From Clostridia bacterium (GTDB taxonomy: Bacteria; Bacillota; Clostridia; Christensenellales; Aristaeellaceae): a DNA stretch of 64,000 nucleotides. This document shows positions 8,414-62,743 of the stretch, one piece after another. Location: contig JAFXQO010000036.1 in NCBI GenBank assembly GCA_017527065.1, forward strand, positions 1 to 64,000, in the 5' to 3' direction. The notes under the pieces are model-generated. The model was not told where the DNA came from, did not search any database, and was given only the letters and a program-made list of their open reading frames with translations. The translations under genes and the position numbers were made by a program. Numbering within the stretch: position 1 is the first letter of the stretch; each line of letters starts with the position of its first letter.

Positions 8414-9001
8414 ATGATGATGAGCGAATTTACCGAGCGCACCGGCATCGAGCCGACCATGGAAGAGTACCACGTGATCGAGGAAATGTACTACGAGTTC
8501 GACGGTGACAAGAACGCCTTCTGCAAAGACTTCCTGAAAAATAACCGGATGGTCGAAGCGCTCCGCAGGCTCAACAACCAAACAGCAGAAACCTTCTACC
8601 GGGCGAACGAGCACCGGCGTGATGCGGAGGAAAAAGTCGCCGAACTGGAAGCCAGGGTGAAAAAGCTGGAAGCTCAGCTCGAGAAAGAGCAGGAATGGAA
8701 GCCCTGGACGAACGAGAAGGCCGTCAAGCAGGAACGATACGATCATCTCCGCAGCAGTGGCCATGAGATGACTGACGACGAAGCGAAGGACTGGATCGCT
8801 CAGGAGTGGGGTTTCGACAGGGCGAAGATCAGGATCAACCGCAGAATGAAGACATTCGAGGTCAGCCGGCACAACTACCTGAGGCAGAACGGAGAAATCG
8901 ACCGCAGCCCCTACTACGATGCGACGGATTGGTATTACGTGTTCTTCACCGTCTGCGGGATGGAATACGAGGCCTACAGTGGGAGCCTCACGCAGCTGTA
9001 A
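8414..9001 (+). CDS. Hypothetical coiled-coil protein
   Basis: The start at 8414 (three successive ATG codons) follows GAGGAAAGAG; an earlier in-frame start would lie inside the promoter. The 195-residue protein has an acidic N-terminal region, a strong heptad coiled coil at about residues 60-95 (EEKVAELEARVKKLEAQLE) and a mixed C-terminal domain rich in Tyr and Trp. No family is recognised. It is the first gene of a six-gene plus-strand block of small, mostly acidic proteins. Confidence 0.75.
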   Translation: MMMSEFTERTGIEPTMEEYHVIEEMYYEFDGDKNAFCKDFLKNNRMVEALRRLNNQTAETFYRANEHRRDAEEKVAELEARVKKLEAQLEKEQEWKPWTNEKAVKQERYDHLRSSGHEMTDDEAKDWIAQEWGFDRAKIRINRRMKTFEVSRHNYLRQNGEIDRSPYYDATDWYYVFFTVCGMEYEAYSGSLTQL

Positions 9002-13314: not shown

Positions 13315-13806
13315 TTACTGGTTGAGTAATGAAAGTTCATTCTCAATCGTCGTGATTTGGTAGTTCGTATTAAGCGTGAAAATAGCACCGTTCGCAATGG
13401 ACGTTTTTGCCTTGCACAATTTCTTGTTCAGATAGAAAAATTCGCCCTTTGCTATGTATCTTGTTGCGCGTTGAACTACTTCTGGTTCAGGCTCCGGTTC
13501 TGGTTCGGGCTCTGGCTCAGGGTCCGGTACATCAGGGATTTCCTCGCCTCCGTCCAGCGCGTCGATGATCTCTTCATACTCAGCAGCGTCAATGATCCGC
13601 ACGTCGGCCTCAAGGGATTCCGTGGCTCCTGACGGCGCGTCCCGCAGCCAGTCAGCGTGATACATCGTTTCGGTCAGGAAATCCTGTACGCGCTCTGCGC
13701 TGTCGATGTCGCAGTAGAAGAACTGACGCTTGCTCGGATACCACTTCAGGAAAGTCGTTCCAGCACCGACAATCGTCCCGTTCCGGATGATCTTGTAGTA
13801 TTCCAT
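13315..13806 (-). CDS. Hypothetical protein with Pro-Glu linker, tail or surface accessory
   Basis: The ATG at 13806 follows GGGAGGGAGGATAGCT. The 163-residue product has an N-terminal domain (YYKIIRNGTIVGAGTTFLKW), a rigid linker of seven Pro-Glu pairs after DVPDPE near residue 100, and a small C-terminal domain (RYIAKGEFFYLNKKLCKA) that resembles short carbohydrate- or spike-associated modules. It follows the DGR in transcription order, so it may be a tail accessory protein; the function is unknown. Confidence 0.65.
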   Translation of the reverse strand: MEYYKIIRNGTIVGAGTTFLKWYPSKRQFFYCDIDSAERVQDFLTETMYHADWLRDAPSGATESLEADVRIIDAAEYEEIIDALDGGEEIPDVPDPEPEPEPEPEPEPEVVQRATRYIAKGEFFYLNKKLCKAKTSIANGAIFTLNTNYQITTIENELSLLNQ

Positions 13807-13883
13807 AGCTATCCTCCCTCCCTTCAAAGGCACAAGAAAACAGCGCCGGGGAATCATCCTCAGCGCCGTTTCGTTGTTCTGTA

Positions 13884-15017
13884 TTATGTCGGTGACAACC
13901 ATCCCTGTACGAACAATTGGTCAAACAGATTTCCCATATTCTGGATCGTGTGCCATGCGTCGAACCGCCGCGCGTAGCTTCGCCAGCTCTGCCACGTCGT
14001 CCAGATGTCCGCGAAGGTCATCCTCCCTGCAATCAGTTTCCGGTTGAGCTTTTTCAGCTTCTGACGCATCTTGGTCACGCTCCGCTTGTATATCTTCCGC
14101 ACCACGTAGCCGGTAGGCGTGAGGAACACTCGGATTTTCAGCCATGAGAAGCCATGACTGAGCTTCACGATCTGTGTCTTCTTCTCGTTCAGCGTGATGC
14201 CAAGCTCACGGCAGATCACCTTGATATGCTCCAAGCACTTTTGCAGGTATTCCTTCGACGGATGGATGAGATAACCATCGTCCATGTACCGACCATAGCC
14301 TTTGATTCTCAGAACCTCTTTGACGTAGTGGTCGAGGCGGTTCGCAGAGGCAAGGGCAAGCACCTGACTGATTTGGCTTCCGAGGCCGACGCCTATGTCG
14401 CCGAACGCGTCAATGAAATGCTCCGTCAGCGCGATCACTTTCCTGTCGGCGAACTGCCTGTGCAGGCAGGCTTTGACAAGCTCATGGCTCACGTTGTCGA
14501 AGAACTTACTGAAGTCGTACAGCAGGATGTAGCCATTGTCACCATACTGCCGGTAATGCTTTTGCAGATGGCATGTAAGCCGACGAACGGCGAAGTCGTA
14601 GCCTTTGTTCGTCATGGACGCGCCGTTGTCATAGATGAACGTGCGCTCAAGCATGGGAACCAGGGCGTTGTCACAGAGGCAGCGCTGCACGACGCGCTCC
14701 ATGATGCCGGTGCTGCGGATGTGGCGGTGTTTGCCGCGCTCGAACAGGTCGAACTCGTAGAAACCGGGGCTCTTGAACTTCCCACTCTCCAATTCCCTGA
14801 AGGTCTGGTACACGTTGAGCGGAGCGTTGGCGATGTACTTCTGCACACTGGCTTTCCATGCTACTCCACGACGGCAGCGTTTATAGGAACGGTACAGGTT
14901 CTCATAGCTGAAAACAGTGGCGAAATCGTCAAAGACGGCGCATTTCGCCGCCTTTTTCGCTTTTCGCGCTTCAACTCTGCGCTTGTACCGCGCTTCGCGC
15001 CGTTCTTCGCTCGTCAT
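13884..15017 (-). CDS. Diversity-generating retroelement reverse transcriptase
   Basis: The 377-residue protein has the reverse transcriptase core. LLYDFSKFF (residues 165-173) carries the first catalytic Asp, LGSQISQ (212-218) is the DGR-type form of the motif that reads QGxxxSP in group II introns, and YMDD (244-247) is the catalytic pair. A basic N-terminus and a C-terminal helical thumb follow, without maturase or endonuclease domains. It copies the TR transcript into adenine-mutated cDNA that replaces the VR of the tail gene. GAGGT precedes the ATG. Order is target, avd, TR, RT, all on the minus strand. Confidence 0.95.
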   Translation of the reverse strand: MTSEERREARYKRRVEARKAKKAAKCAVFDDFATVFSYENLYRSYKRCRRGVAWKASVQKYIANAPLNVYQTFRELESGKFKSPGFYEFDLFERGKHRHIRSTGIMERVVQRCLCDNALVPMLERTFIYDNGASMTNKGYDFAVRRLTCHLQKHYRQYGDNGYILLYDFSKFFDNVSHELVKACLHRQFADRKVIALTEHFIDAFGDIGVGLGSQISQVLALASANRLDHYVKEVLRIKGYGRYMDDGYLIHPSKEYLQKCLEHIKVICRELGITLNEKKTQIVKLSHGFSWLKIRVFLTPTGYVVRKIYKRSVTKMRQKLKKLNRKLIAGRMTFADIWTTWQSWRSYARRFDAWHTIQNMGNLFDQLFVQGWLSPT

Positions 15018-15414
15018 ACGTCATACCTCAAAAATCAAAACCCCGTACTCCTGCTGGATGGTTACAATAGGAGCGTAGCGTTACCGGCCATGAAATGCCG
15101 CATCACCATCAAGCGGCACCATGCAAGCAGCGTCCGACCGAACGCATCAGGGTCTATATTTACCTGCGTTCCCGCAGGAAGGTCAAGCTCTCCTTCTCTC
15201 TCCTTACCCGGACGGGGTTCGCCTTTCGGTTACTACGTCTGCCGTGAGAGGAGCCGCACACCAGCCCGTAGGCGTTGTTCGCGTTGTTGTTGTTGTTGCT
15301 ACCGTTGTTGTTGACATTCCAGAAGTTGTTGGTATTGGTTAGGTTAGGAGACCGCAACCACCAGTACGCCGCACGCAACCAACGGGGTATTACAGAGCTT
15401 AACCTATGGGAGTT
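15018..15414 (-). ncRNA. DGR template RNA region (TR plus spacer)
   Basis: This non-coding stretch between avd and the reverse transcriptase gene contains the TR (15252-15381) and about 234 bases of spacer towards the RT start. In the studied DGRs (Bordetella phage BPP-1) the TR transcript and its 3' spacer form the RNA that RT and Avd bind and prime from, so the same role is inferred. The open frame that crosses the TR on this strand is a result of Asn codons in the template, not a protein gene. Confidence 0.8.
15252..15381 (-). repeat. DGR template repeat (TR)
   Basis: These 130 bases align without gaps with the 3' end of the 2,502-codon target gene, 726 bases away. On the coding strand the TR is rich in AAC codons at the positions that vary, which allows the widest amino-acid choice when A is mutated. 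Of its 36 adenines 14 differ in VR, and none of the 94 other bases differs. Homology ends sharply at both sides (TR C against VR T at 15251/15977). Confidence 0.97.
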
Positions 15415-15425
15415 CTATGGGAGTT
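15404..15425. repeat. Tandem 11-base repeat at the avd stop codon
   Basis: CTATGGGAGTT occurs twice in succession and contains the avd stop codon in its second half. It may simply be a small duplication; no function can be shown. Confidence 0.6.
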
Positions 15426-15819
15426 CTTTGTACCGTGCTCTGTCGTTCTTCAGCACAGCCTTTAAGAGGCGCATTTCGGTATCGATGATCTCCATCCAGT
15501 ATTTCATCGTGTCCATCTCAATACCGAACAGCTCCTGCGCCACTTCGATCTGAGAGACCATGTTCTGAAGCTCCGCGTATGCCCTCAGGAAGTAATCGCG
15601 CCGCATCTGCACCTCGTGCTGGTTCAGCGGATAGATGCTGTTGCCGCGCTTCACGTTCGCGTAGATATACGTTGCGGAGTTCGCCAACGGCTGGGACACG
15701 TAGAAGGTGTACCGCTTTGGAAAGCCTACGCACTTTTGCAGCGTGTACACTTCCAGCTTCCGCGCATTGGCGAGAAACTCCATTTCGGAGGTGCTTCTCT
15801 TCGACTTGATGACAGACAA
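15415..15819 (-). CDS. avd: DGR accessory variability determinant (Avd)
   Basis: The 134-residue basic, helical protein (ELQNMVSQIEVAQELFGIE, then YWMEIIDTEMRLLKAVLKND) matches the four-helix-bundle Avd family, related to 23S rRNA intervening-sequence proteins. Avd forms a pentameric barrel that binds the RT and TR RNA and is required for mutagenic homing. Translation begins at TTG (15817-15819), with GAGGTGG upstream, as no ATG or GTG start is available. It lies between target and TR, the standard position. Confidence 0.9.
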   Translation of the reverse strand: MSVIKSKRSTSEMEFLANARKLEVYTLQKCVGFPKRYTFYVSQPLANSATYIYANVKRGNSIYPLNQHEVQMRRDYFLRAYAELQNMVSQIEVAQELFGIEMDTMKYWMEIIDTEMRLLKAVLKNDRARYKELP

Positions 15820-15873
15820 TGGACACCACCTCGCCTTCAGGAGCCATTATACCATAAACCCGGATTTTTGGCA

Positions 15874-15897
15874 AAAATTTTCGCCGCTTCGCGGCGA
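15874..15897 (-). terminator. Stem-loop with T-run between target gene and avd
   Basis: On the minus strand a seven-base stem (TCGCCGC/GCGGCGA, 15881-15897) with a three-base loop is followed by AAATTTTTG. It could reduce transcription from the target gene into avd. Weaker than the other terminators because three A precede the T-run. Confidence 0.55.
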
Positions 15898-15925
15898 CTG
15901 GATTGGCTTGGTGCTATCCGCTGGC

Positions 15926-15953
15926 AATCCGGCCCCACAAAGGGGGCCGGATT
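15926..15953 (-). other. Inverted repeat just behind VR (DGR homing hairpin candidate)
   Basis: AATCCGGCCCC (15926-15936) and its exact complement (15943-15953) enclose six bases. The hairpin begins 13 bases after the target stop codon and 24 bases after the VR end. DGRs of phages often carry a hairpin or cruciform at this place, which stimulates retrohoming. No T-run follows on the coding strand, which argues against a plain terminator. Confidence 0.75.
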
Positions 15954-15966
15954 ATAGGATACCGGA

Positions 15967-18900
15967 TTAAATCGAGAAGCCGCACACCAGCCCGTAGGCG
16001 TTGCTCGCGTTGGAGTTGTTGACGCTACCGGTGCCGGCGACATTCCAGAAGTAGTTGGTATTGGTGAGGGTAGGAGACCGCAACCACCAGCACGCCGCAC
16101 GCAACCATTTGCCCCCGGTGTTACCGGCGCTGTCTGCACCCTGGGCGGCTACGTTATCGGATGAGGTATTCAGCCTGCCGCAGGCGTGCTTGTGCTTCGC
16201 CAAAAAGTCCGCGTTGACGTAAATGAAGCCGATGTTCGAGTTGCTGGTATTGATCCAGACCGTCTTCTCGCTGATGACCGTATACGTGCCTGCGTACAGC
16301 GTCGGGTCGGCGCTGTCCACGATGATGTTCACATCGTCGGGCAGGATGAAGCCGGGGAATCTGACGCGCACGTTGTTCGCCGTCAGGCCAGCCGCCGAAT
16401 TTGCGACGAACCACGGGATGGTATGCCGCAGGTCGTCCAATTCGTCCAGATACGTCGTGTCGGTCTGGCCGGGGAACGCTTCGGCGTATGCGGCCAGATA
16501 TACCTTGTCCATCGTGCTCTGGACTTCGGTCGATTTGTTGCCGGCGCTTGATCTGACTCTGGCTTCCTTGATGATGCTCTGCAGCGAAATCGGGAAAGCG
16601 TCGTAGAGCTGGCCGTTCATCCACGCTCTCCGCATACTGTCTTTCCAGCCGCCGAGGTTCGTGGACGTACTGTTCATCACACCCAGAAGCGGGAGCGGAT
16701 TTTCAGCGATGAAGCCTGCCGCGACAACCGACGTGACGTCGAGGCCGTTGCGGTACTGGATCGGGTCGTAGTTGAAGCGCATCGGGATATGCGGGAAATT
16801 GGCAATCGCCTTCGCGTCATACGTGCCAAGGTCGCCGTACCAGATTTTGCACCAGTGAATCCAGCCGGTGGCGCGGAGCGACGTGATGTCGCTGCCGTTT
16901 ATGATGCCGATGCCGCCGAGCGTCAGGGGCGCGGTCGTCGAGGTGGCTGTCGCGCGCGCACGGGCCGCTTCCACGCAGTTGGTGGCAAGGTTGTTCGTGT
17001 TGACGGGATAGACGTTGGCTGACGTATTTCCGTCATAGCCGATGTACAGCACCTGAGCGGCGGTTCCCTTGTTGTAGCGGATCGTCATGATGCCACGCTG
17101 ATACTGATACCCGACGTTGATGTTCACGTCGCCCCACAGCAGGTTCACATAGTTGCCTGTACGCCTGAGCTGGAAGCCTTGGTTCCCGTTGTCGTCGAAG
17201 CAGGCCAGCAGAGCGCCTGCGTCGCTCGTGAACTCGAAGTCAATGGCAATCGTGAAGGTGTCAATCGTCCCGTTGAAGAGCTGGAGCAGTGCGCGGTCAT
17301 TCTCGCCGTTGAAGATGACAGGCGTCGATGAGCCGTCGAAGTACGTGGGCGTCGACACCAGCGTCAGATCTTCGATGTTGTTGAAGTGGAAATCACGGCC
17401 CAGCACAACGTCGAAATGATCTTTCGGAGACCAGTACGACGCCGCCACGTTGTTCTTGGCGATGGCGGCGATCTGCGCCATGCTCATGTCTTCGAGGCCG
17501 ACGTTGGAGTTCGGGTCGGGCAGCGTGCCGACAATCCATGTGGCTTTGACCACCGTGTCGCCGGTGATGAAGCCAGTGCTGGCGTCCCAGCCGTTGAACA
17601 CGTAGAACACGTTGTTCCCTTCGAGGGCCGTGTAGGTCGGGTGGTTATCGAGAGGCTGCACGCAGGAGCCGTAACTGACGCCTGTTCGCTGTTCAAGCTG
17701 AGTGCCGTTGCCGGAGCCTACGCCGTCGTACCATGTGACGGTGTACGTCCTCACCGTGGACGTGTAGGTCGCCGTCACGGTCACGTTGGAGATGACAGCC
17801 TGCGGCAGGTTGTCCCAGTCGTCGAAGGTGTACGTATAATGCGGGTCGCTGGCCTTGGTCGGGGTCGGCACTTCGCCGCTCTGGATGGGGTCGTGGGCCG
17901 CGTCGCCGCTGTCCACATACTGGATATAGGCGTTGCCGTTGACGTCCAGTATTGGCGTGCCGTCCGCGTTCAGGAAGGTCACCGTGTACTGCGTGATGGT
18001 CTGCGCAGCCGTGATCGTCAGGTTCGGGTAGTAGGTGTTCATCAGGGTCAGCGTCCTCGCGCCGATGGCGTCCACGCTGATCTGGCCGGTAATCACGGGC
18101 CAGGCGTTGGGATCGTTATCGAGGTTGCCGTTCGCGTCCAGGCGCTTGCCCTGCGCCGCCGCCGATGTCAGGGCCTTGAACAGGCTGTAATCGGGGCCGC
18201 TCACGCTCTCGTCAATGCCGATCAGTCGGATGCCGAGGCGAAGGTTGGCAAGACGTGCGGCGAGGATGTCGAGCACGCCGACGTTCGGCGTGTTCTCTAC
18301 GCGCAGCATGACCAGTTCGGACAGGCTGTCGTAGCTGAAGTCTTCGAGATACGGCTGGTTCAGCAGCACGATACGCTTCGGCGTGCCAAGCTCAAGCGTC
18401 TCCAAAACGCCGCCATTGGCGAAGGTGAAGTACGGGACGGTAGAGCCGCCTGCGTACACTTCCCGGATGAGCGTGTTGGCGCTCAGGTTGATGGGCGTAT
18501 CCGTGAAGCCTGTGCAGCCCTGCACGTTCAGCGTGTCCAGCAGAGCGCAGGCGCTGGTGTCGAGGCTCGACAGGTCGCCGTTGGCGTAGCCCGTTTCATT
18601 CGAGCCGATGAGCAGCGTCTTCAGCTTACCGGCGTTGGTGAGGCCGATCTCATACGGATGGAAAGCGGCCAGCGAGGAAACGCTGGTCAGATTGCTTGCC
18701 CCGTGGATATGCACGTTGTCGCTTCGGCCAAGGCTGTTCGGAGAGATGATCGTCGCCGTTTCGCCTGCGGCCTTCTTCGCGCTCATGACGGCAGAACCGC
18801 TGTCGCCATAGCTCACGCCCATCCACATTGCCTGAATCGCGGACAGGACAATCGTCGTGTCGGCCTGCGCAACGGCAGAGCCGCAGCGGAAGGCAAGCTG

Positions 18901-21900
18901 GTCGTTCAGGAACTGGTCGCACTGGTACTTCGAGTACAGCATCATGGAGCGCCGGTAGATGAAGGATTCCTTCTGCTCCGTGCGGGAGCCGCGCTGCAAA
19001 TACTTGTAGGCGCTGGTCTGCGTCCATGTCGGGTTCTCCGGGTCTACGCTGTAGTCCCAGTAGCCTTTCGTCCATGCGTCCTCGTACTTGTACTCCATGT
19101 CGTCGTTCACGACGGCGGGACACACAAGTTCCGCATTGTCGGTGATATGCACCTGCTTCAGCACGGCGTAGTTCAGCGTGCCGCTGCCGGTGTTGCTCCG
19201 GGTGATGAGCTGCGCCCTCGCCTTGATCTCATCGGCAAACGCTTCCTCGAACATGCACCACATGCGGCTGTCGTGGCCGTTGAACTGGTACGTGTCCGTC
19301 CTGCCGAGCTTATAGTTCCAGTCGGCATAATACGGGATTCGGATGTAGCCTGAGTTCTCTGCGCCGAAACACGAGTCGAGGTCATACAGGTCGGTGTACC
19401 ATATGCCGAAAGTGGAATTCGCCCAGTCGATCTTGCTGGCGTCCACAGCGCCGGTCTCCATGTTCACGCAGTCCCAGATCGATGTAGAGGAATCGGTGAA
19501 TACAATCGATTCAGTCCGCACGTTCTTGCAGCTCAGGAACATGTTCTTCGCCCGGTTATCGCACAGGGCAACCCATTCGATGAAGATGTAATACACAAGG
19601 GCGTGTTCCATGTTGAAGTGCCATGTGAACTCGCGCTTGAACCGGGCTTTCTTCAAATCGCGTTCTGTGCTGTAGCTCGTGCCGTTGTACGTGCCGCCTG
19701 TGCCGCTCGTTGTCGAGGCGTCCCAGAAGTTCGCCCACTGGTACAGCCATGTGTACAGCACCTGGATGTGGCTGTAATCAGGCTCAATACCGGCGTCGTC
19801 CAGATCGCCTTCGTCAGGGTAGCAGGATTCGAGGCCGTTCCGGGCCTGACGCTTCCAGGACAGATCTTCCGCATAGATTTTCTCCATGAGGCGATCCGTC
19901 TTGAACGAGCAGAGCGGGTTCGAGTTGTCCTTGAATTCCCACTTCTGCTGCGTGGTGTCAGCGCCGTCGTCGCCTTCCGTTTCGAGGCCGAAGGATTTTG
20001 AATTGCCCTTGTCGTTGTTCAGACAGCCGTCACCGGCGAAGACGATTGTGCCTTCCGGGTAGTCCTCGAACGCGGTGCCAGCCACGTAATCCTCCTGCGC
20101 CATATTGAACAGCAGGCAGCGGAAGCCCCAGATGGTATTCTGGACGAGGGAACCGGCAGGCTTGTCGTTGAACAGCGTGTCCGCGATGTTGGCGTTGAAG
20201 GTGTTGGCGTGGTCGGTAGACATGTAGTCGGCCTTATAGCACAGCGTGCTTTCACCGATGGATAAGGGCTGGTCGTTCTCATCGTAGCCTTTCAGCACAT
20301 ACTTGACTTTCTTTGTGCTGGCCCCGTCGTTCTTGACGAGGTACACCTTGAAATTCTTCCGCATGAAGCGCTGCGAAGACGTGCCCTGCACCTTGATCGA
20401 CGAGACGAACTTATTGGCCGAATCCTGATCGAGCAGGCTGAATTCGGTGCCGTAGCCGCCCAATCCGTCAGGCTTCGTCAGCACGACGCCTATGTACTGC
20501 CGGTCGTTCTTGAAGTTCGACAGCTTGCCGATGAACAACAGGCACGGGTATTTCAGCCGGGCCTTCACGTAATCGACAGCGCCGTCGCTGTTCAGGATGT
20601 CGTTGTACTCGTTCTGGCTGATGCGCTCACGGATGTCGATGGAGCTGTTCATGTGGTTGCGCAGCACTTCGGAATCGCTCAGGTCGCGGTTGTACATGCG
20701 CACGTCGTACAGCTTGGTCACGCAGTCGTCAGAACCGATGGTGATCGTGGCCGTGCCGTTGTAGATCGCGTCCTCGCTGTACAGGTAGCTGTTGGCGTAC
20801 TCGCCGTTGATGAAGATGTTGGCGTAGGACGTGAAGCGGTTGTCTTCCGTCCAGCGCTTCCGCTGGATGACGAAGGTCACGCGGATGTGCTTCTCATCCT
20901 TGATGTACGCGCATGGGATCGATTCTTCGTTCTCGATGAATCCGGTGCTGTCCAGAACGGGGGACTGGCCGTCAGCCAGCAGGTAGCACACCTGCGGCGT
21001 GATGACGAAGCCGACGCCGTTGCTGTCAAGGCATGAGAACACGACGCTGTTCTGGTTCGTCACGTTGTCCAGCTCGAACTCAAATTCGATGGTTCGACCT
21101 GACGTGGTGACGGTCGCGCCGGTGGCCGCGTCCAGAACAACCGTCTCATCCGCGTCGTTCAGGAAGCTGGTGGTCAGGATCGGAAGATGGATGCTCATCC
21201 TCGCCGCGCCTGCGATGGTCAGACTTTTGCCGTCAAGGTAGCCGTCAGTGACCCAGTTGAAATCGTTCATCTTGGCGGTGATGTCGCGTTCATGACCGAC
21301 AGCGTCTGTCAGTTTGTGCACGTAGGTTTCACGGCCAGCGGTGTTGTTGGTGTAGCCGGTGGGCTTATAGCTGAACACAAGGCCGCTGGTTACGGGCGTG
21401 ATGTCGTAATCGGTCTGCACCTCTGTCACGGTGAACGTCAGCATGAAGGTCGCATCACCGCTGGTCAGCTCGATATAGCCTGTGCCAAGTTCCGGGTACA
21501 GGCTGATCGGCAGGGTGAAGGTGGTGTTGTTGGCGATACTCTCAAACTCGGCGGTGTAATAGTCCGTCTCTGTCCCATCGGATTCGGAATACACCCGAAT
21601 GCCAAGCTCGTCCGTGGTTTCCTGTCCGGGCGTGTAGCAGACATAGCGGAGCATCAGGGTCTCGCCGTTCTCAATGGTGTACTCATCGAGGGACGCGCCG
21701 ACAATCGGGTTTTGGCTGCTGCCGTTGTCATACAGGATGGGGAACGTCAGGATGTTTGATTCAGCGCCGTCCGATGTTTCAAACCACAGCTTTGCCAGAT
21801 GAGCGCCGTAGGCGTAGTTGCCGACCAGCGTGACCGGGAGCTGGAGCGCCTGATTATGGCTCGTGCCGACGTTGACATGGGTATACTCAGTGCCGTCGAT

Positions 21901-23475
21901 GTACAGGTACACAGTCTTGCTCAGGCCGCGCCCGGTGCAGATATACGGGATGCTCATGTTGCCGGTGTACGTCGCAGCGGAATTGAACGTGGTCGAGATG
22001 CTCATGGCGACGCTCGTGATGTTGTACTGAAGCGTCTTCGTCTGGGCGTCTTCATTCGACCGGCCATTGGAGCAGATCACGCGGATATTGGTCACAAGGC
22101 CCTCGCTCAGGAGCGATGTCACGTTTACGGACTGGTCGGCGTTGGACGCCACCTGCTGGTTCGTGATGAACGTGCGCCAGACGCTTTCGGTGCTCAGCTT
22201 GTACTGGACGGTCATCAGGCCATTGGAATACTCAATCTCCGAACCGTAATACTCCACGTACTTGAAGCTCAGGATGGTCTGCTGTGTGGATGCGACGGTC
22301 AGCGTCGTGGATACCATGTTGTTGATGATTCTCACGCTGTAGCCTGCCGCTCCACCGCCGCCCCCCTGGATGAAGAACGGGCCGTCGAACAGCTCTTCGC
22401 CGTTGCTGTCGTAGAAGTGCAGGTAGTAGCTGGAATCGTACTCGACCGCCGCGAGGTCGGAACCGCCGCTGATGGAGATTGTGTCCGTCTCGCCGTTCGT
22501 CCACGTGATCTTGATGCCGCCTTCCACGGCTTCCACGTTGGACACAAGGCCGGTGGTCACAAGCCCCTGCAGCGTGTTCACGGCTGTGCTGAGTTCGTTG
22601 ACGGCGCTGGCGCTGGCCGCGCCGATATTGGTACGGGCTTGCGCCTTCTGCGAATCTGTCAGGCTTTGCGCCGCGTCGTACTTCACCATGCCGCCGATCT
22701 CATCCACGCCGATGTTCTGCCGGGCCTGCTGTTTCTGCGCCGGTGTGAGGGCCTGGGCCTCATCATACCGCACAGCGCCTTCGGCTACCTGCGAGGCGGC
22801 TTCCAGCGCTGCCTTGAGTTCAGCGCCGATGGTCTTGGCCTCACAGTTATAGCCGGTCGCCGGCTTGGGCGTGATCGTATCGCCGATGGCGATGTCATCC
22901 GTGGCCCGGTACAACGCGCCGCTGTAGAAGAAATACGACCCCGCGTCATGCGCGTAGGTCGTGGTCGAGCTCGCCTCGGTGACGGCGATGGCTCCGGTGA
23001 TGCCTGCCGCAGTCGCTGCTGCTGCGGCGGCTGTCGCGGCTGCAGCCTGAGCCTGCGCTGTGGCCGCTTGGATGTTCGCCAGGTTGATGATGTCTTCCGG
23101 GTCGATGATCTCATCCGTCTGCGTCGGGATGACGTTCGTGCTGCAGGAATACACAGCAAGGGTATTCTCGTTCGTCACAAAAATCGTGATCGTCGCCCGG
23201 CCTGGGTGCGCGTAACAGGAGGCGGGCAGCGTCACGACGGCTTTCCCGTCCGCTATCGTCCCTTCGAGCGGCTGCGTCCGGCCGGTTGACCAATTGATGA
23301 GCGTGCCGGTCACGGTGCCGCTCAGGACGTAGGGCTGTCGGTTACGCGTGGCGCCGATGATAAACATGTGAGCCTGATCCTCGCCGCCATACAACGCGCC
23401 GGGCAGCGCCTCAGGCGTGACCAGCCTGTCAAGTGGCGTGATTCGCTCAATCGGGATGATGTGGGTTTCGGGCAC
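15967..23475 (-). CDS. Giant DGR-diversified tail fibre/receptor-binding protein
   Basis: The 2,502-residue protein starts at GTG with GAGGAGGG in front. Approximate layout: a BppU-like baseplate-attachment domain (25-120), an Ala-rich helix (135-160), Ig-like beta regions, a LamG-like domain (700-930), a region like CotH-type kinase folds (980-1310, VQGTSSQRFMRKNFK), LRR-like repeats (1590-1750), two InlB-type repeats (1825-1975), a second LamG-like domain (2045-2230) and a C-terminal DUF6273/C-type-lectin-like domain (from 2275) with WWLRSP. VR covers residues 2457-2500. It is the DGR target and should bind the host surface. The CotH and LRR calls are tentative. Confidence 0.92.
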   Translation of the reverse strand: MPETHIIPIERITPLDRLVTPEALPGALYGGEDQAHMFIIGATRNRQPYVLSGTVTGTLINWSTGRTQPLEGTIADGKAVVTLPASCYAHPGRATITIFVTNENTLAVYSCSTNVIPTQTDEIIDPEDIINLANIQAATAQAQAAAATAAAAAATAAGITGAIAVTEASSTTTYAHDAGSYFFYSGALYRATDDIAIGDTITPKPATGYNCEAKTIGAELKAALEAASQVAEGAVRYDEAQALTPAQKQQARQNIGVDEIGGMVKYDAAQSLTDSQKAQARTNIGAASASAVNELSTAVNTLQGLVTTGLVSNVEAVEGGIKITWTNGETDTISISGGSDLAAVEYDSSYYLHFYDSNGEELFDGPFFIQGGGGGAAGYSVRIINNMVSTTLTVASTQQTILSFKYVEYYGSEIEYSNGLMTVQYKLSTESVWRTFITNQQVASNADQSVNVTSLLSEGLVTNIRVICSNGRSNEDAQTKTLQYNITSVAMSISTTFNSAATYTGNMSIPYICTGRGLSKTVYLYIDGTEYTHVNVGTSHNQALQLPVTLVGNYAYGAHLAKLWFETSDGAESNILTFPILYDNGSSQNPIVGASLDEYTIENGETLMLRYVCYTPGQETTDELGIRVYSESDGTETDYYTAEFESIANNTTFTLPISLYPELGTGYIELTSGDATFMLTFTVTEVQTDYDITPVTSGLVFSYKPTGYTNNTAGRETYVHKLTDAVGHERDITAKMNDFNWVTDGYLDGKSLTIAGAARMSIHLPILTTSFLNDADETVVLDAATGATVTTSGRTIEFEFELDNVTNQNSVVFSCLDSNGVGFVITPQVCYLLADGQSPVLDSTGFIENEESIPCAYIKDEKHIRVTFVIQRKRWTEDNRFTSYANIFINGEYANSYLYSEDAIYNGTATITIGSDDCVTKLYDVRMYNRDLSDSEVLRNHMNSSIDIRERISQNEYNDILNSDGAVDYVKARLKYPCLLFIGKLSNFKNDRQYIGVVLTKPDGLGGYGTEFSLLDQDSANKFVSSIKVQGTSSQRFMRKNFKVYLVKNDGASTKKVKYVLKGYDENDQPLSIGESTLCYKADYMSTDHANTFNANIADTLFNDKPAGSLVQNTIWGFRCLLFNMAQEDYVAGTAFEDYPEGTIVFAGDGCLNNDKGNSKSFGLETEGDDGADTTQQKWEFKDNSNPLCSFKTDRLMEKIYAEDLSWKRQARNGLESCYPDEGDLDDAGIEPDYSHIQVLYTWLYQWANFWDASTTSGTGGTYNGTSYSTERDLKKARFKREFTWHFNMEHALVYYIFIEWVALCDNRAKNMFLSCKNVRTESIVFTDSSTSIWDCVNMETGAVDASKIDWANSTFGIWYTDLYDLDSCFGAENSGYIRIPYYADWNYKLGRTDTYQFNGHDSRMWCMFEEAFADEIKARAQLITRSNTGSGTLNYAVLKQVHITDNAELVCPAVVNDDMEYKYEDAWTKGYWDYSVDPENPTWTQTSAYKYLQRGSRTEQKESFIYRRSMMLYSKYQCDQFLNDQLAFRCGSAVAQADTTIVLSAIQAMWMGVSYGDSGSAVMSAKKAAGETATIISPNSLGRSDNVHIHGASNLTSVSSLAAFHPYEIGLTNAGKLKTLLIGSNETGYANGDLSSLDTSACALLDTLNVQGCTGFTDTPINLSANTLIREVYAGGSTVPYFTFANGGVLETLELGTPKRIVLLNQPYLEDFSYDSLSELVMLRVENTPNVGVLDILAARLANLRLGIRLIGIDESVSGPDYSLFKALTSAAAQGKRLDANGNLDNDPNAWPVITGQISVDAIGARTLTLMNTYYPNLTITAAQTITQYTVTFLNADGTPILDVNGNAYIQYVDSGDAAHDPIQSGEVPTPTKASDPHYTYTFDDWDNLPQAVISNVTVTATYTSTVRTYTVTWYDGVGSGNGTQLEQRTGVSYGSCVQPLDNHPTYTALEGNNVFYVFNGWDASTGFITGDTVVKATWIVGTLPDPNSNVGLEDMSMAQIAAIAKNNVAASYWSPKDHFDVVLGRDFHFNNIEDLTLVSTPTYFDGSSTPVIFNGENDRALLQLFNGTIDTFTIAIDFEFTSDAGALLACFDDNGNQGFQLRRTGNYVNLLWGDVNINVGYQYQRGIMTIRYNKGTAAQVLYIGYDGNTSANVYPVNTNNLATNCVEAARARATATSTTAPLTLGGIGIINGSDITSLRATGWIHWCKIWYGDLGTYDAKAIANFPHIPMRFNYDPIQYRNGLDVTSVVAAGFIAENPLPLLGVMNSTSTNLGGWKDSMRRAWMNGQLYDAFPISLQSIIKEARVRSSAGNKSTEVQSTMDKVYLAAYAEAFPGQTDTTYLDELDDLRHTIPWFVANSAAGLTANNVRVRFPGFILPDDVNIIVDSADPTLYAGTYTVISEKTVWINTSNSNIGFIYVNADFLAKHKHACGRLNTSSDNVAAQGADSAGNTGGKWLRAACWWLRSPTLTNTNYFWNVAGTGSVNNSNASNAYGLVCGFSI
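15978..16107 (-). repeat. DGR variable repeat (VR)
   Basis: These 130 bases encode residues 2457-2500 of the target. They differ from TR at 14 sites, all at TR adenines (six A to G, five A to C, three A to T). Nine codons change amino acid, for example Asn to Ala, Gly, Thr, Val, Ser and Tyr. Most lie in the WNVxxxGSxxxxxAxN stretch, the ligand-binding face of such lectin folds. The 3' end is GC-rich and identical in both copies, as expected for the homing initiation site. Confidence 0.97.
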
Positions 23476-59938: not shown

Positions 59939-60811
59939 TCAATAGAAATCGTTCTCGTCGGCATAAGGCTTCTGGTCTGTCCCGCCGTTCCTGCGCTTTT
60001 CCTCGTAGGCCTTCACGTCGCCCAGGGTCTTGAATCCGTTTTCAACATAGCGGTTCAGGATGGAGCGGACGTAGTTGTAAACGGGAACGCCGTTGCCGCA
60101 CGCTTCGTCGATGGCGTGACGGATCAGCTCGTCCGGCAGGGAATCGCGGAAGGATGTGAGTTCTTCCATGTTGTAGAGCGTCATGTTCCGAAGATTCGCA
60201 GATGCGTATGCTTCGAGAGTGTCGGGACTGAGCTGGTGGTGGGGGTCGTAATCGCCGAACGGATTGCCCGTATCGAATGAACAAGTACCACCACTACCGT
60301 TCTCTTTCTCTGGTATCTGATCTCTTATATCTGGTCTCTTATCTCTAATATCTTTATCTCTAATATCTGTGTGGAAATTTTCCACACCACTTTCCACACT
60401 GTTTCCACGTGCCCCAGGTGGAAGAGCATCCCGGCCTTTGAGCTGATCACGTTTCTGCTGTGCCCAGTCCGTTTCGCTGCCGACCATTCGGTCATGATCA
60501 GCCAGCACCAACGTCCCGTCGCGTTCCTCATAGATCAGGCCGAAGCGCTTATAGAGATTCAGAGCAACACGGATGGTGTCTGCGGAGAACCACTTGCAAT
60601 CCCTCTGGATTTTCTCCACGTCGTAGGGGATGACGATCTCGCCGATTGTCCGGGAGAGACGCCCACCCGTGTTGATGGTTTTGAGACAGAGCATCTGATA
60701 CAGGACCACGTAATTCGCGCCGTCTTTCTGGCTCATCAGGAAATCAACCGTGTCGCTGGTCATGAAGGTTTCCCGGAGCTTGATCCAGTAATAGCGCTTG
60801 CCTGTAGCCAT
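59939..60811 (-). CDS. Replisome organiser (Phage_rep_org_N, DnaD-like)
   Basis: The 290-residue product begins with GKRYYWIKLRETFMTSDTVD, the winged-helix domain of phage initiators. A central linker (about residues 140-175) is encoded by an AT-rich repetitive stretch, and a C-terminal DnaD-like domain follows (AIDEACGNGVPVYNYVRSIL). It should bind the origin inside its own gene and recruit the loader encoded just downstream. Confidence 0.9.
   Translation of the reverse strand: MATGKRYYWIKLRETFMTSDTVDFLMSQKDGANYVVLYQMLCLKTINTGGRLSRTIGEIVIPYDVEKIQRDCKWFSADTIRVALNLYKRFGLIYEERDGTLVLADHDRMVGSETDWAQQKRDQLKGRDALPPGARGNSVESGVENFHTDIRDKDIRDKRPDIRDQIPEKENGSGGTCSFDTGNPFGDYDPHHQLSPDTLEAYASANLRNMTLYNMEELTSFRDSLPDELIRHAIDEACGNGVPVYNYVRSILNRYVENGFKTLGDVKAYEEKRRNGGTDQKPYADENDFY
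60315..60409. other. Candidate phage replication origin inside the initiator gene
   Basis: An AT-rich tract of repeated ATCTCT/AATATCT units (60315-60368) lies beside a near-palindrome GTGTGGAAATTTTCCACAC (60369-60387) and three TTTCCAC(A/G) units at 60379, 60391 and 60402, spaced 12 and 11 bases. TTTTCCACA fits the DnaA-box pattern TTWTNCACA. Iterons next to an AT-rich tract inside an initiator gene are the usual origin layout of such phages. Confidence 0.6.
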
Positions 60812-60827
60812 TGCTCATTACCTCCGA

Positions 60828-61274
60828 TCAGAAGGGAAGCTCGTCATCGTCAACTTCCGTGAAGCCCGATGTGTCCATCTTGGTCTGCGTGGCCTGAGGC
60901 TGCTGGTAACCGGGCGATGGCGGAGGAGGCGGGGGAGCGTAATTGTCCGCATCCCTGTCCCTGGGTGTAACGAAATCGAATTCCTCGACCAGCAGCTCAG
61001 TGATGTACCGCTTCTGGCCATCCTGCTCATAGCTGCGGTTCTGCATCGATCCGTTCAGCGCGATTTTCTGGCCTTTACGGAAAAACTTGTGAATGTTTTC
61101 CCCGGTCTGCCGCCACGCGACGCAGTTGAAGAAGTCGGCTTCGCGCACGCCCTGCTGATTCGGGTATTTGCGCTGAACGGCGATCCGGAAGGTACAGCAC
61201 GCGATGTTGTTCTGCGGCGTGTACCGAAGCTCCGGGTCTGCCACGATGTTGCCGATCAGGATGACCTTGTTCAT
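60828..61274 (-). CDS. ssb: Single-stranded DNA-binding protein
   Basis: The 148-residue product has the OB-fold pattern NKVILIGNIVADPELRYT, DFFNCVAWRQTGENI, a Pro-rich linker and the acidic C-terminal tip DDDELPF that binds partner proteins. It coats single-stranded DNA in phage replication and recombination. Confidence 0.95.
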   Translation of the reverse strand: MNKVILIGNIVADPELRYTPQNNIACCTFRIAVQRKYPNQQGVREADFFNCVAWRQTGENIHKFFRKGQKIALNGSMQNRSYEQDGQKRYITELLVEEFDFVTPRDRDADNYAPPPPPPSPGYQQPQATQTKMDTSGFTEVDDDELPF

Positions 61275-61582
61275 GCCTTCTTCTCCTCCTGTGGCATTTT
61301 GATGATGCCGAGCAGATGCCGCAGCGTGTCGCCGGAGATGTTATCGTTCCGGCTGATGTAATCGCGAAGGAGATCGTACACTGCCACCTTGCTGACCAGA
61401 CTGTTATACTCATAACGGGGAATGGTCACGGAATTGGTGATGGTAACAGCGCCGGCAAGATCGCTGGCGGGCATCATAAAACTGTCTCCGATCTCTGCTT
61501 CAATGTTGAACTCCGGGAAGAAGAAATGCTTCTGACGAGGCTGTCGTTTCGTATTGTGGTTATGACTTATGTAGTCCTTCAT
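61271..61582 (-). CDS. Hypothetical protein
   Basis: The 103-residue product (AGAVTITNSVTIPRYEYNSL, then AVYDLLRDYISRND) is not recognised. It overlaps ssb by four bases. The region around residue 60 resembles short helical phage proteins of replication operons. Confidence 0.68.
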   Translation of the reverse strand: MKDYISHNHNTKRQPRQKHFFFPEFNIEAEIGDSFMMPASDLAGAVTITNSVTIPRYEYNSLVSKVAVYDLLRDYISRNDNISGDTLRHLLGIIKMPQEEKKA

Positions 61583-61601
61583 GGCTTGTCCTTTCTGCGG
61601 C

Positions 61602-62135
61602 TCATGGCCGCCACTCTTCTTTGTACCGGGCGATGATGTCCGGCGTGTCGGTCTCTATGCCCAATTCCTGGGCTTCGTGGACAGCGCCGTCGATCAGGTG
61701 ACTCATCTCGGCGCTGTCCATGTAGCGTGTGCGCTTGTAGAACAGATAGCAGTTGTATGTCTTGCCGTCCTGCTCTACGCTCTTGTAGCAGCGGGTGTAG
61801 GGATAGAACTTGTCGATGTCGGCGGACATGGGGAGCATGGCGGCGACCACGTTGCCGTCCTCGTCGCGCTCCACCGTACCGTATCGCACCACCAGCCAGC
61901 GCTTGGCCTCGTCGTCTGATACGCCCTGCGAGATGGCGATCTTGTTCACCAGCACGTGGAAGTAGGCGTTCGCGTCCAGCGAGCGGGGCTTGCGGAATTC
62001 CTTGATCTCAGCGCTGATTTCCTTCTCATGCAGCCGATCATATTCGTCGCGGAAGTCATCGGTCGTTTCGATGGTGACGCGCTGCTTTCCACCGGCCAGC
62101 ATGAGATGATCGACCAGCGTTCCCCTGATCTTCAT
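61602..62135 (-). CDS. NinB-like recombination protein
   Basis: The 177-residue product has RSLDANAYFHVLVNKIAI and a distant YKSVEQDGKTYNCYLFYKRT, the pattern of NinB/Orf-family proteins that bind single-stranded DNA and help recombination. It overlaps the exonuclease gene by four bases. Confidence 0.8.
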   Translation of the reverse strand: MKIRGTLVDHLMLAGGKQRVTIETTDDFRDEYDRLHEKEISAEIKEFRKPRSLDANAYFHVLVNKIAISQGVSDDEAKRWLVVRYGTVERDEDGNVVAAMLPMSADIDKFYPYTRCYKSVEQDGKTYNCYLFYKRTRYMDSAEMSHLIDGAVHEAQELGIETDTPDIIARYKEEWRP

Positions 62136-62743
62136 AGCGCCCGCCAGTGCTGGCGGTAGAGCTCGTCGAGGCCCTGCACGCTCAGCCAGTCGTAGAAGTT
62201 GGAAACGATGCTGTCAATGCTGGCAGCCTCCTCGCGCCGGTAGGTCTCCTGCCAGAATTCCTTCCCGTTGCTGATCAGGTAAGAGAACTCGCGGGCTTCC
62301 GGCACGAGGCGCAGGTACATCGGGTGCTGGGTGCTGTCGAAGTACTTGCCGGCCTCATAGTGGCCGCTGTACTTGATGTCGTAGATGACGCCACCTTTCA
62401 GCGCGTCCAGTCGGCCGTACAGCAGCACATCACGATCACCGATGCGCACCAGCTTCTTCGCGCTGTACTGGAGAATGCCGCCCCGGATGATGCCGGCGAC
62501 GCGGTTGGCGGTGAAATACCACTCGTTCGTCTTGTCGCCGGTTCCGTTGAGGATGGCGGTGACCAGATTCTCGAAGTCGATGCCCTTCTGCATGGCTGCG
62601 CTGGTGGGCGTCGGTTCACGCCGCAGTACTGCCATGAATTCAGCCAACGGATCGCGTTCCGTGGTCGCGTCGTCATAGGGGTTGTCCTGAATGGCGTACA
62701 GCCAGGATGAAAGCAGACTGTGCGTAACCAGAAAACGGTCCAT
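62132..62743 (-). CDS. PD-(D/E)xK exonuclease (RecB/Cas4-like)
   Basis: The start at 62743 lies six bases after GGGGG. The 203-residue product has GIDFENLVTAI, LLYGRLDALKGG and IYDIKYSGHYE with a downstream STQHPMYL, which together form the Glu, Asp, Asp-x-Lys and Gln residues of the nuclease core. It probably resects phage DNA for annealing with the ATPase encoded upstream. Confidence 0.85.
   Translation of the reverse strand: MDRFLVTHSLLSSWLYAIQDNPYDDATTERDPLAEFMAVLRREPTPTSAAMQKGIDFENLVTAILNGTGDKTNEWYFTANRVAGIIRGGILQYSAKKLVRIGDRDVLLYGRLDALKGGVIYDIKYSGHYEAGKYFDSTQHPMYLRLVPEAREFSYLISNGKEFWQETYRREEAASIDSIVSNFYDWLSVQGLDELYRQHWRAL

Follow-up and report, generated by a model that had tools for sequence, protein, structure and literature searches.

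Diversity-generating retroelements (DGRs) are already known as a class. In BPP-1, the spacer RNA between the template repeat (TR) and the reverse transcriptase (RT) recruits bRT-Avd and primes cDNA synthesis, as described in the part of the source consulted (PMC12875486). CotH is listed for 6 DGR target proteins in the consulted part of another paper (PMC4159848), and a third paper (PMC8144416), in the portion consulted, earlier proposed that DGR targets recombine intragenically. Here we compare such systems with a locus in the window, by which we mean the whole 64,000 nt analysed, positions 1 to 64,000 of contig JAFXQO010000036.1 from a Clostridia bacterium (assembly GCA_017527065.1). The locus is a complete phage DGR, in plan an ordinary one and firmly confirmed, with its parts in series on the minus strand: target gene with variable repeat (VR), Avd, TR, structured spacer RNA and RT. 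The original prediction, made from the sequence alone, had claimed a complete DGR in a prophage with its parts on one strand in the classic order and an RT carrying LGSQISQ and YMDD; this is borne out, as all the parts and both motifs were located:

15967..23475, minus strand: DGR target gene, 2,502 residues, GTG start, likely a tail adhesin (open reading frame; DUF6273 at the C-terminus, E 3.2e-12; position after Dit and the tape measure)
15974..16107, minus strand: VR, target residues 2457-2501 (89% identity with TR; all but one of the 15 differences fall on TR adenines)
15415..15819, minus strand: Avd, 134 residues, TTG start (PHROGs 'Avd protein of DGR', E 4.2e-9)
15248..15381, minus strand: TR, 134 nt, with 36 adenines and 15 AAY codons in the target frame (repeat comparison with VR)
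15018..15247, minus strand: spacer RNA filling the TR-RT gap, Rfam RT-2, RF03077 (144.3 bits compared to a gathering score of 40, full model)
13884..15017, minus strand: DGR reverse transcriptase, 377 residues, with LGSQISQ and YMDD (motifs, Pfam, PHROGs, tree)

TR and VR are near-identical and differ almost exclusively at TR adenines, with mismatches at 14 of the 36 TR adenines compared to 1 of the 98 other TR bases (Fisher p 1.4e-8), and they form the sole direct repeat of at least 40 nt found in 12-25 kb of the window. When TR is read in the frame of the target, 35 of its 36 adenines fall at codon position 1 or 2, and VR itself occupies the 3' end of a gene that carries a lectin-type domain. 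The single mismatch away from an adenine (C/T) sits three bases short of the pair's 3' end, and the same difference, TCC in TR and TTC in VR, is repeated at this spot in relatives including L003, L004, L010, L011, L013 and L015. In BPP-1 this 3' end region of VR and TR is occupied by the initiation of mutagenic homing (IMH) and IMH* elements, according to the passages of PMC12875486 consulted.

A search of viral contigs with an adenine-masked TR/VR pattern found nothing, and VR diversity was therefore taken from homologous proteins and from relatives of the RT. Compared as proteins alone, their own TRs not having been seen, two homologues show the expected pattern: P0002, of 2,502 residues, is identical to the window target at 2044 of 2172 body residues (94%), at 264 of the 285 C-terminal residues that lie outside VR and at 22 of 25 VR residues of the other codons, yet at only 3 of 20 residues of codons whose first or second base is a TR adenine (p 5.6e-18). 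The respective values for P0001 are 1856 of 2161, 264 of 285, 21 of 25 and 7 of 20 (p 1.6e-7). Among the loci fetched by RT, 15 non-independent pairs have TRs identical over the compared stretch, and 14 of these pairs differ in VR, with 171 of the 180 differences at TR adenines. L006 and L007, which come from different samples, are identical over 2,500 flanking bases and differ at 17 VR positions, every one a TR adenine, and L010 and L011 are identical over 1,300 bases and differ at 13 VR positions, again all TR adenines. The relatives thus display natural VR diversity with a constant TR. Because VR variation in near-identical relatives is almost confined to TR adenines, these comparisons support the view that the DGR is active in this lineage. 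A lack of VR variation in any related strain, which the original prediction had named as evidence that would overturn it, is contradicted at the level of the lineage.

The whole gap between TR and RT corresponds to a single Rfam family, RT-2. In the RT relatives scanned, a set found first by RT homology, RT-2 precedes the RT in 9 of 9 and in 15 of 17 loci, and the two without it are L112 and L057, whose RT starts where the contig ends. Among 398 genomes of the phylum, stricter filters left an RT-2 match in only 2, one being the genome of the window and the other scoring below the cut-off; the converse search, by RNA alone, was therefore made in viral contigs. It used a 17-nt RT-2 motif and yielded at least 120 stretches, 80 loci of which, among the matches listed, were examined; their contigs overlap in part with those of the RT-homology set. 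Among the matches listed, a related RT follows the motif in all 73 loci that have at least 500 nt downstream, an adenine-biased repeat pair whose TR ends about 100-230 nt ahead of the motif is present in 54 of the 55 that have at least 1,500 nt upstream, and the 66 repeat pairs found via the motif have 995 of 1046 mismatches at TR adenines. RNAalifold predicts 28 base pairs on 49 spacers (of 59 dereplicated rows, window included, ten having been left out by hand without a test), and 22 of these pairs change on both sides yet keep pairing in one or more sequences. We identify RT-2 as a spacer RNA of DGRs; by analogy with the BPP-1 spacer, it likely recruits RT and Avd and primes cDNA. It is absent from a second DGR of the same genome (see below), from the stretches of Lelie, a Faecalibacterium prophage DGR, and of nd12, and from 8 further loci. 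The RT RNA motifs reportedly stem from a 2017 paper, and our literature search, which did not extend to that source, found no paper linking RT-2 to DGRs. The Rfam 15 paper lists RF03077 in a table and contains neither the word retroelement nor the stem reverse transcript-; we found no function stated for the family.

Two further observations concern RNAs near related RTs. In L073 a tandem pair of RT-2 RNAs (272-509 and 653-895) stands ahead of one RT, perhaps as two template units. Matches to the twister-P5 and hammerhead II ribozymes lie downstream of the RT at L003:14849-14902, L003:15384-15448 and L004:15770-15834, in the two loci with the closest RTs of the first set of relatives; the window has no match to either ribozyme at the gathering score.

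The accessory gene Avd is recognised by PHROGs, falls below the cut-off of Pfam 23S_rRNA_IVP (19.4 compared to 33.8 bits) and has no match of note in NCBIfam. Three candidate cis elements lie between the target stop and avd:

15926..15953, minus strand: 11-bp perfect hairpin directly 3' of the target stop, a DGR-type stem-loop (hairpin scan and comparison across loci)
15881..15897, minus strand: terminator-like hairpin in the target/avd interval (consensus scan; 8 in the stretch compared to 3.3 in shuffles)
15846..15874, minus strand: promoter-like site upstream of avd, TTGCCA-17-TATAAT (11 of 12 matches to consensus)

Of 80 loci, window included, 70 have a perfect hairpin with 7 or more bp no further than 110 nt 3' of VR; such a hairpin occurs in 3 of 76 control stretches from within the target and in 1 of 80 shuffles. 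The order of a terminator-like hairpin followed by a promoter-like site ahead of avd suggests that a promoter of its own may drive the cassette.

The target had been thought unusual for its 2,502 residues, and on this point the original prediction finds no support. All 29 other targets of at least 1,000 residues among the RT relatives align with the window target, the 24 complete ones have open frames of 1,822 to 2,409 residues, and 80 protein homologues of its C-terminus range from 1,486 to 2,932 residues (E of 0.001 or less, 7,991 candidates scored, lengths restricted to 0.55-1.75 times that of the query). Two regions of the protein concern us here:

15970..16662, minus strand: C-terminal lectin-type region (DUF6273), about residues 2272-2502, containing VR (DUF6273 in 26 of 26 rows; core modelled confidently; C-type lectins among the fold neighbours)
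18922..20553, minus strand: CotH-kinase-like domain, about residues 975-1518 (predicted fold)

The model of the C-terminal region has no Foldseek match among structures at E 0.001 or better, and a sequence-profile search of solved structures gave one match for the C-terminus (E 0.99) and nothing for the CotH segment. The stretch preceding VR, about residues 2351-2460, is modelled without confidence; at window positions 16126-16362 on the minus strand (about residues 2372-2450), some 70 residues directly ahead of VR are absent from 25 aligned relatives. By sequence, the target reaches 15.0 bits against Pfam CotH (PF08757), below the cut-off of 23.8, a CotH match at E 1 or better occurs in 12 of 26 rows (best 5.4e-11), and hhalign of the target segment to host CotH gives a probability of 25% with an alignment drawn from 10 of 20 loci, L135 and L138 (stop codons) and eight more being left out. 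By predicted structure, the segment has the CotH kinase fold, a fold search with the model of residues 975-1518 having found CotH; the target body thus carries a predicted CotH-kinase fold.

How the locus is to be interpreted depends in part on the class of its RT, which carries YMDD together with LGSQISQ, which we take to be a DGR-type motif, and which matches Pfam RVT_1 (E 3e-15) and PHROGs reverse transcriptase (E 2.4e-84). Its best NCBIfam match by E-value is a group II RT/maturase (E 6.7e-24), as would be seen if the RT came from a group II intron or a retron, with the repeat a duplicate that arose by chance or gene conversion. This match, to TIGR04416, reaches 84.7 bits, however, compared to a cut-off of 300, and in the RT tree a supported group unites the window RT, which adjoins TR, with its counterpart in phage Shimadzu and with RTs adjoining adenine-biased repeats. 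The grouping with group II introns that the original prediction would have taken as disproof was not found, in a tree with no confirmed group II outgroup, as no sequence in the 20 genomes searched exceeds the group II cut-off. In addition, a repeat pair that passes our filter (at least 3 mismatches, at least 60% of them at A, or at T) is present in 80 of the 98 RT relatives, and a few of these pairs may be spurious; L010, with 4 of 7 mismatches at A, escaped the filter and was included manually in the VR comparison. Gene conversion would not be expected to place 14 of 15 differences at adenines. On score, motif and grouping we reject an RT of the group II intron or retron kind, and we give next to no credence to this explanation as a whole. 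A gene of 195 residues with a run of PE repeats (13315-13902, minus strand) overlaps the 3' end of the RT; its sole match, to an uncharacterised PHROG, is weak.

We put the probability at about 0.93 that the locus is a functional phage DGR, in which RT and Avd copy TR to adenine-mutated cDNA that replaces the end of a tail-region protein. Several observations weigh against this. The data for this very phage comprise one VR state in a single assembly, and a search of the 3.07-Mb assembly with TR matched TR itself and the window VR alone, so that VR diversity within the strain is not visible. Among the relatives, L058 and L059 share a TR and have identical VRs, 9 of the 180 VR differences between same-TR pairs lie away from TR adenines, and L228, an RNA-motif locus, has RNA and RT and no repeat pair in the stretch examined. 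The 2 promoter-like sites of the stretch are not above shuffles (2.1). A genuine DGR that diversified its target in the past and has since fallen silent in this prophage would account for the single VR state and for the match between L058 and L059; yet RT, Avd, TR, RNA and hairpin are all intact in sequence, and the near-identical P0002 has a different VR, which makes silence very improbable. The role of the target leaves more room for alternatives. Because its gene is placed after the tape measure, Dit and a long baseplate-type gene and ends in a lectin-type tip, the protein is likely a receptor-binding protein or tail adhesin. The original prediction had called it the phage receptor-binding protein outright; gene position and tip fit that claim, and the binding itself we infer. 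It is also conceivable that in a real DGR a kinase-bearing tail or surface protein acts on the host or its environment, with the lectin tip as an anchor. We find this rather doubtful, given that the gene occupies the usual receptor-binding position behind the tape measure and Dit and that other published phage DGR targets are adhesins in the portion consulted of PMC11792537.

A functional DGR could operate here as follows. Transcription from the consensus-like promoter ahead of avd would yield a single avd-TR-spacer-RT transcript, in which RT-2, judging by its position, its conserved structure and the BPP-1 precedent, would fold, recruit RT and Avd and prime cDNA at the 3' end of TR. Randomised opposite adenines, this cDNA would then enter VR, aided by the VR 3' end and the hairpin behind the target stop. 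About 20 residues of the lectin-type tip would vary, allowing the phage to try new surface ligands. Adenine-mutating reverse transcription and retrohoming in this prophage are predictions from sequence.

Cassette and adhesin seem to have been exchanged, since RT and body identities disagree and related targets occur with another cassette or with none nearby. L003 and L004 have the RTs closest to that of the window (about 80% identical) and target bodies only 24-25% identical to it, compared to RTs 54-62% identical and target bodies about 50% identical in L016, L019, L056 and L062. Across 24 loci, whose rows are non-independent, RT and target-body identity are weakly negatively correlated (Spearman -0.43, p 0.035). 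L285 is 62.7% identical to the target over residues 212-2502 and L294 52%, and neither has a repeat pair or an RT in 20.8 kb around the target, nor an RVT_1 match in the whole viral records of 113 and 116 kb, which are possibly fragments; unless they are, these two loci would be natural DGR-less partners. An RVT_1 match is present in 6 of the 8 records searched and is distant from the target in L288, L289 and L291, and L283, L284 and L287 combine a similar tip and an adenine-biased TR with an RT whose identity to the nearest RT used is 35-37%, without RT-2.

The same genome holds a second DGR at L161:6331-8391 (contig G000:C70, about 60676-62737), with a TR/VR pair of 120 nt whose 15 differences all lie at TR adenines and an RT with IGNLTSQ and YMDD; its stretch has no Rfam match, and a tape-measure-type match lies on the same contig. 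In L060 two adenine-biased VRs (8628-8762 and 17441-17576) belong to one TR, one upstream and the other about 7.7 kb downstream.

The prophage context claimed in the original prediction is likewise upheld by structural, lysis and integrase genes. Those recognised are tape measure, Dit, head, scaffold, portal, terminase, helicase loader, Sak4-like annealing protein and endolysin, and a serine integrase lies at contig positions 68216-69748, just beyond the window. Since this integrase is followed by host alpha-mannosidase and chorismate synthase genes, and translations of the left flank resemble, by eye, host sugar-transport genes, the prophage spans about 7 to 70 kb of the contig; its ends are approximate, as an attL/attR search gave only 12-13 nt repeats.

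What this locus adds is the role given to the RT-2 family and the kinase-fold body of the target. RT-2 gains a concrete job as a second Rfam class besides Phage_DGR in the TR-RT gap of phage DGRs, and because it fills this gap, it could be used to find DGRs by RNA alone. The two families also offer a chance to compare how different RNAs prime adenine mutagenesis. One giant adhesin family that occurs with this cassette, with another cassette or with none on the contigs examined provides natural comparisons, and hypervariable tail proteins with a kinase fold, called unstudied in one paper, form a testable group. A bolder proposal, which we consider unlikely, is that the lectin tip steers an atypical CotH-type kinase, so that the DGR would retarget a tail enzyme, with RT-2 as the priming scaffold of that retroelement clade. 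If true, a DGR would direct an enzyme, beyond an adhesin alone, to ever new surface molecules.

Among known systems, BPP-1 (mtd, avd, TR, brt; NC_005357) shares the target-Avd-TR-RT order on one strand, a structured RNA in the TR-RT gap and, in part from the portion consulted of PMC12875486, the hairpin after VR and the lectin-fold target end. It differs in its RT, which is 25% identical to that of the window, in its spacer RNA, which is Rfam Phage_DGR compared to RT-2 here, and in its target, Mtd being encoded by 1,146 bases compared to 7,509 for the target of the window. The Faecalibacterium prophage DGRs (Lelie, Pioen, Roos and CP11) likewise have VR at the C-terminus of a DUF6273 domain, as given in the consulted part of PMC11792537, whereas the RT of Lelie is 31% identical to the window RT and its stretch has no Rfam match at E 0.05. 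CotH-lectin fusions, which occur among DGR targets and in phages, join a CotH-type domain to a hypervariable lectin domain, according to the consulted part of PMC8008677, as the target appears to do, with the difference that CotH is here below the Pfam cut-off by sequence and is assigned from the structure model. The nearest named phage by RT is Roseburia phage Shimadzu (LR596903; 48% identical), whose annotated tail fibre gene ahead of avd has 1,296 bases and follows P2-type baseplate genes, unlike the target described here, and which has the same part order and the same RT-2 RNA (144.9 bits) in the gap between TR and RT.
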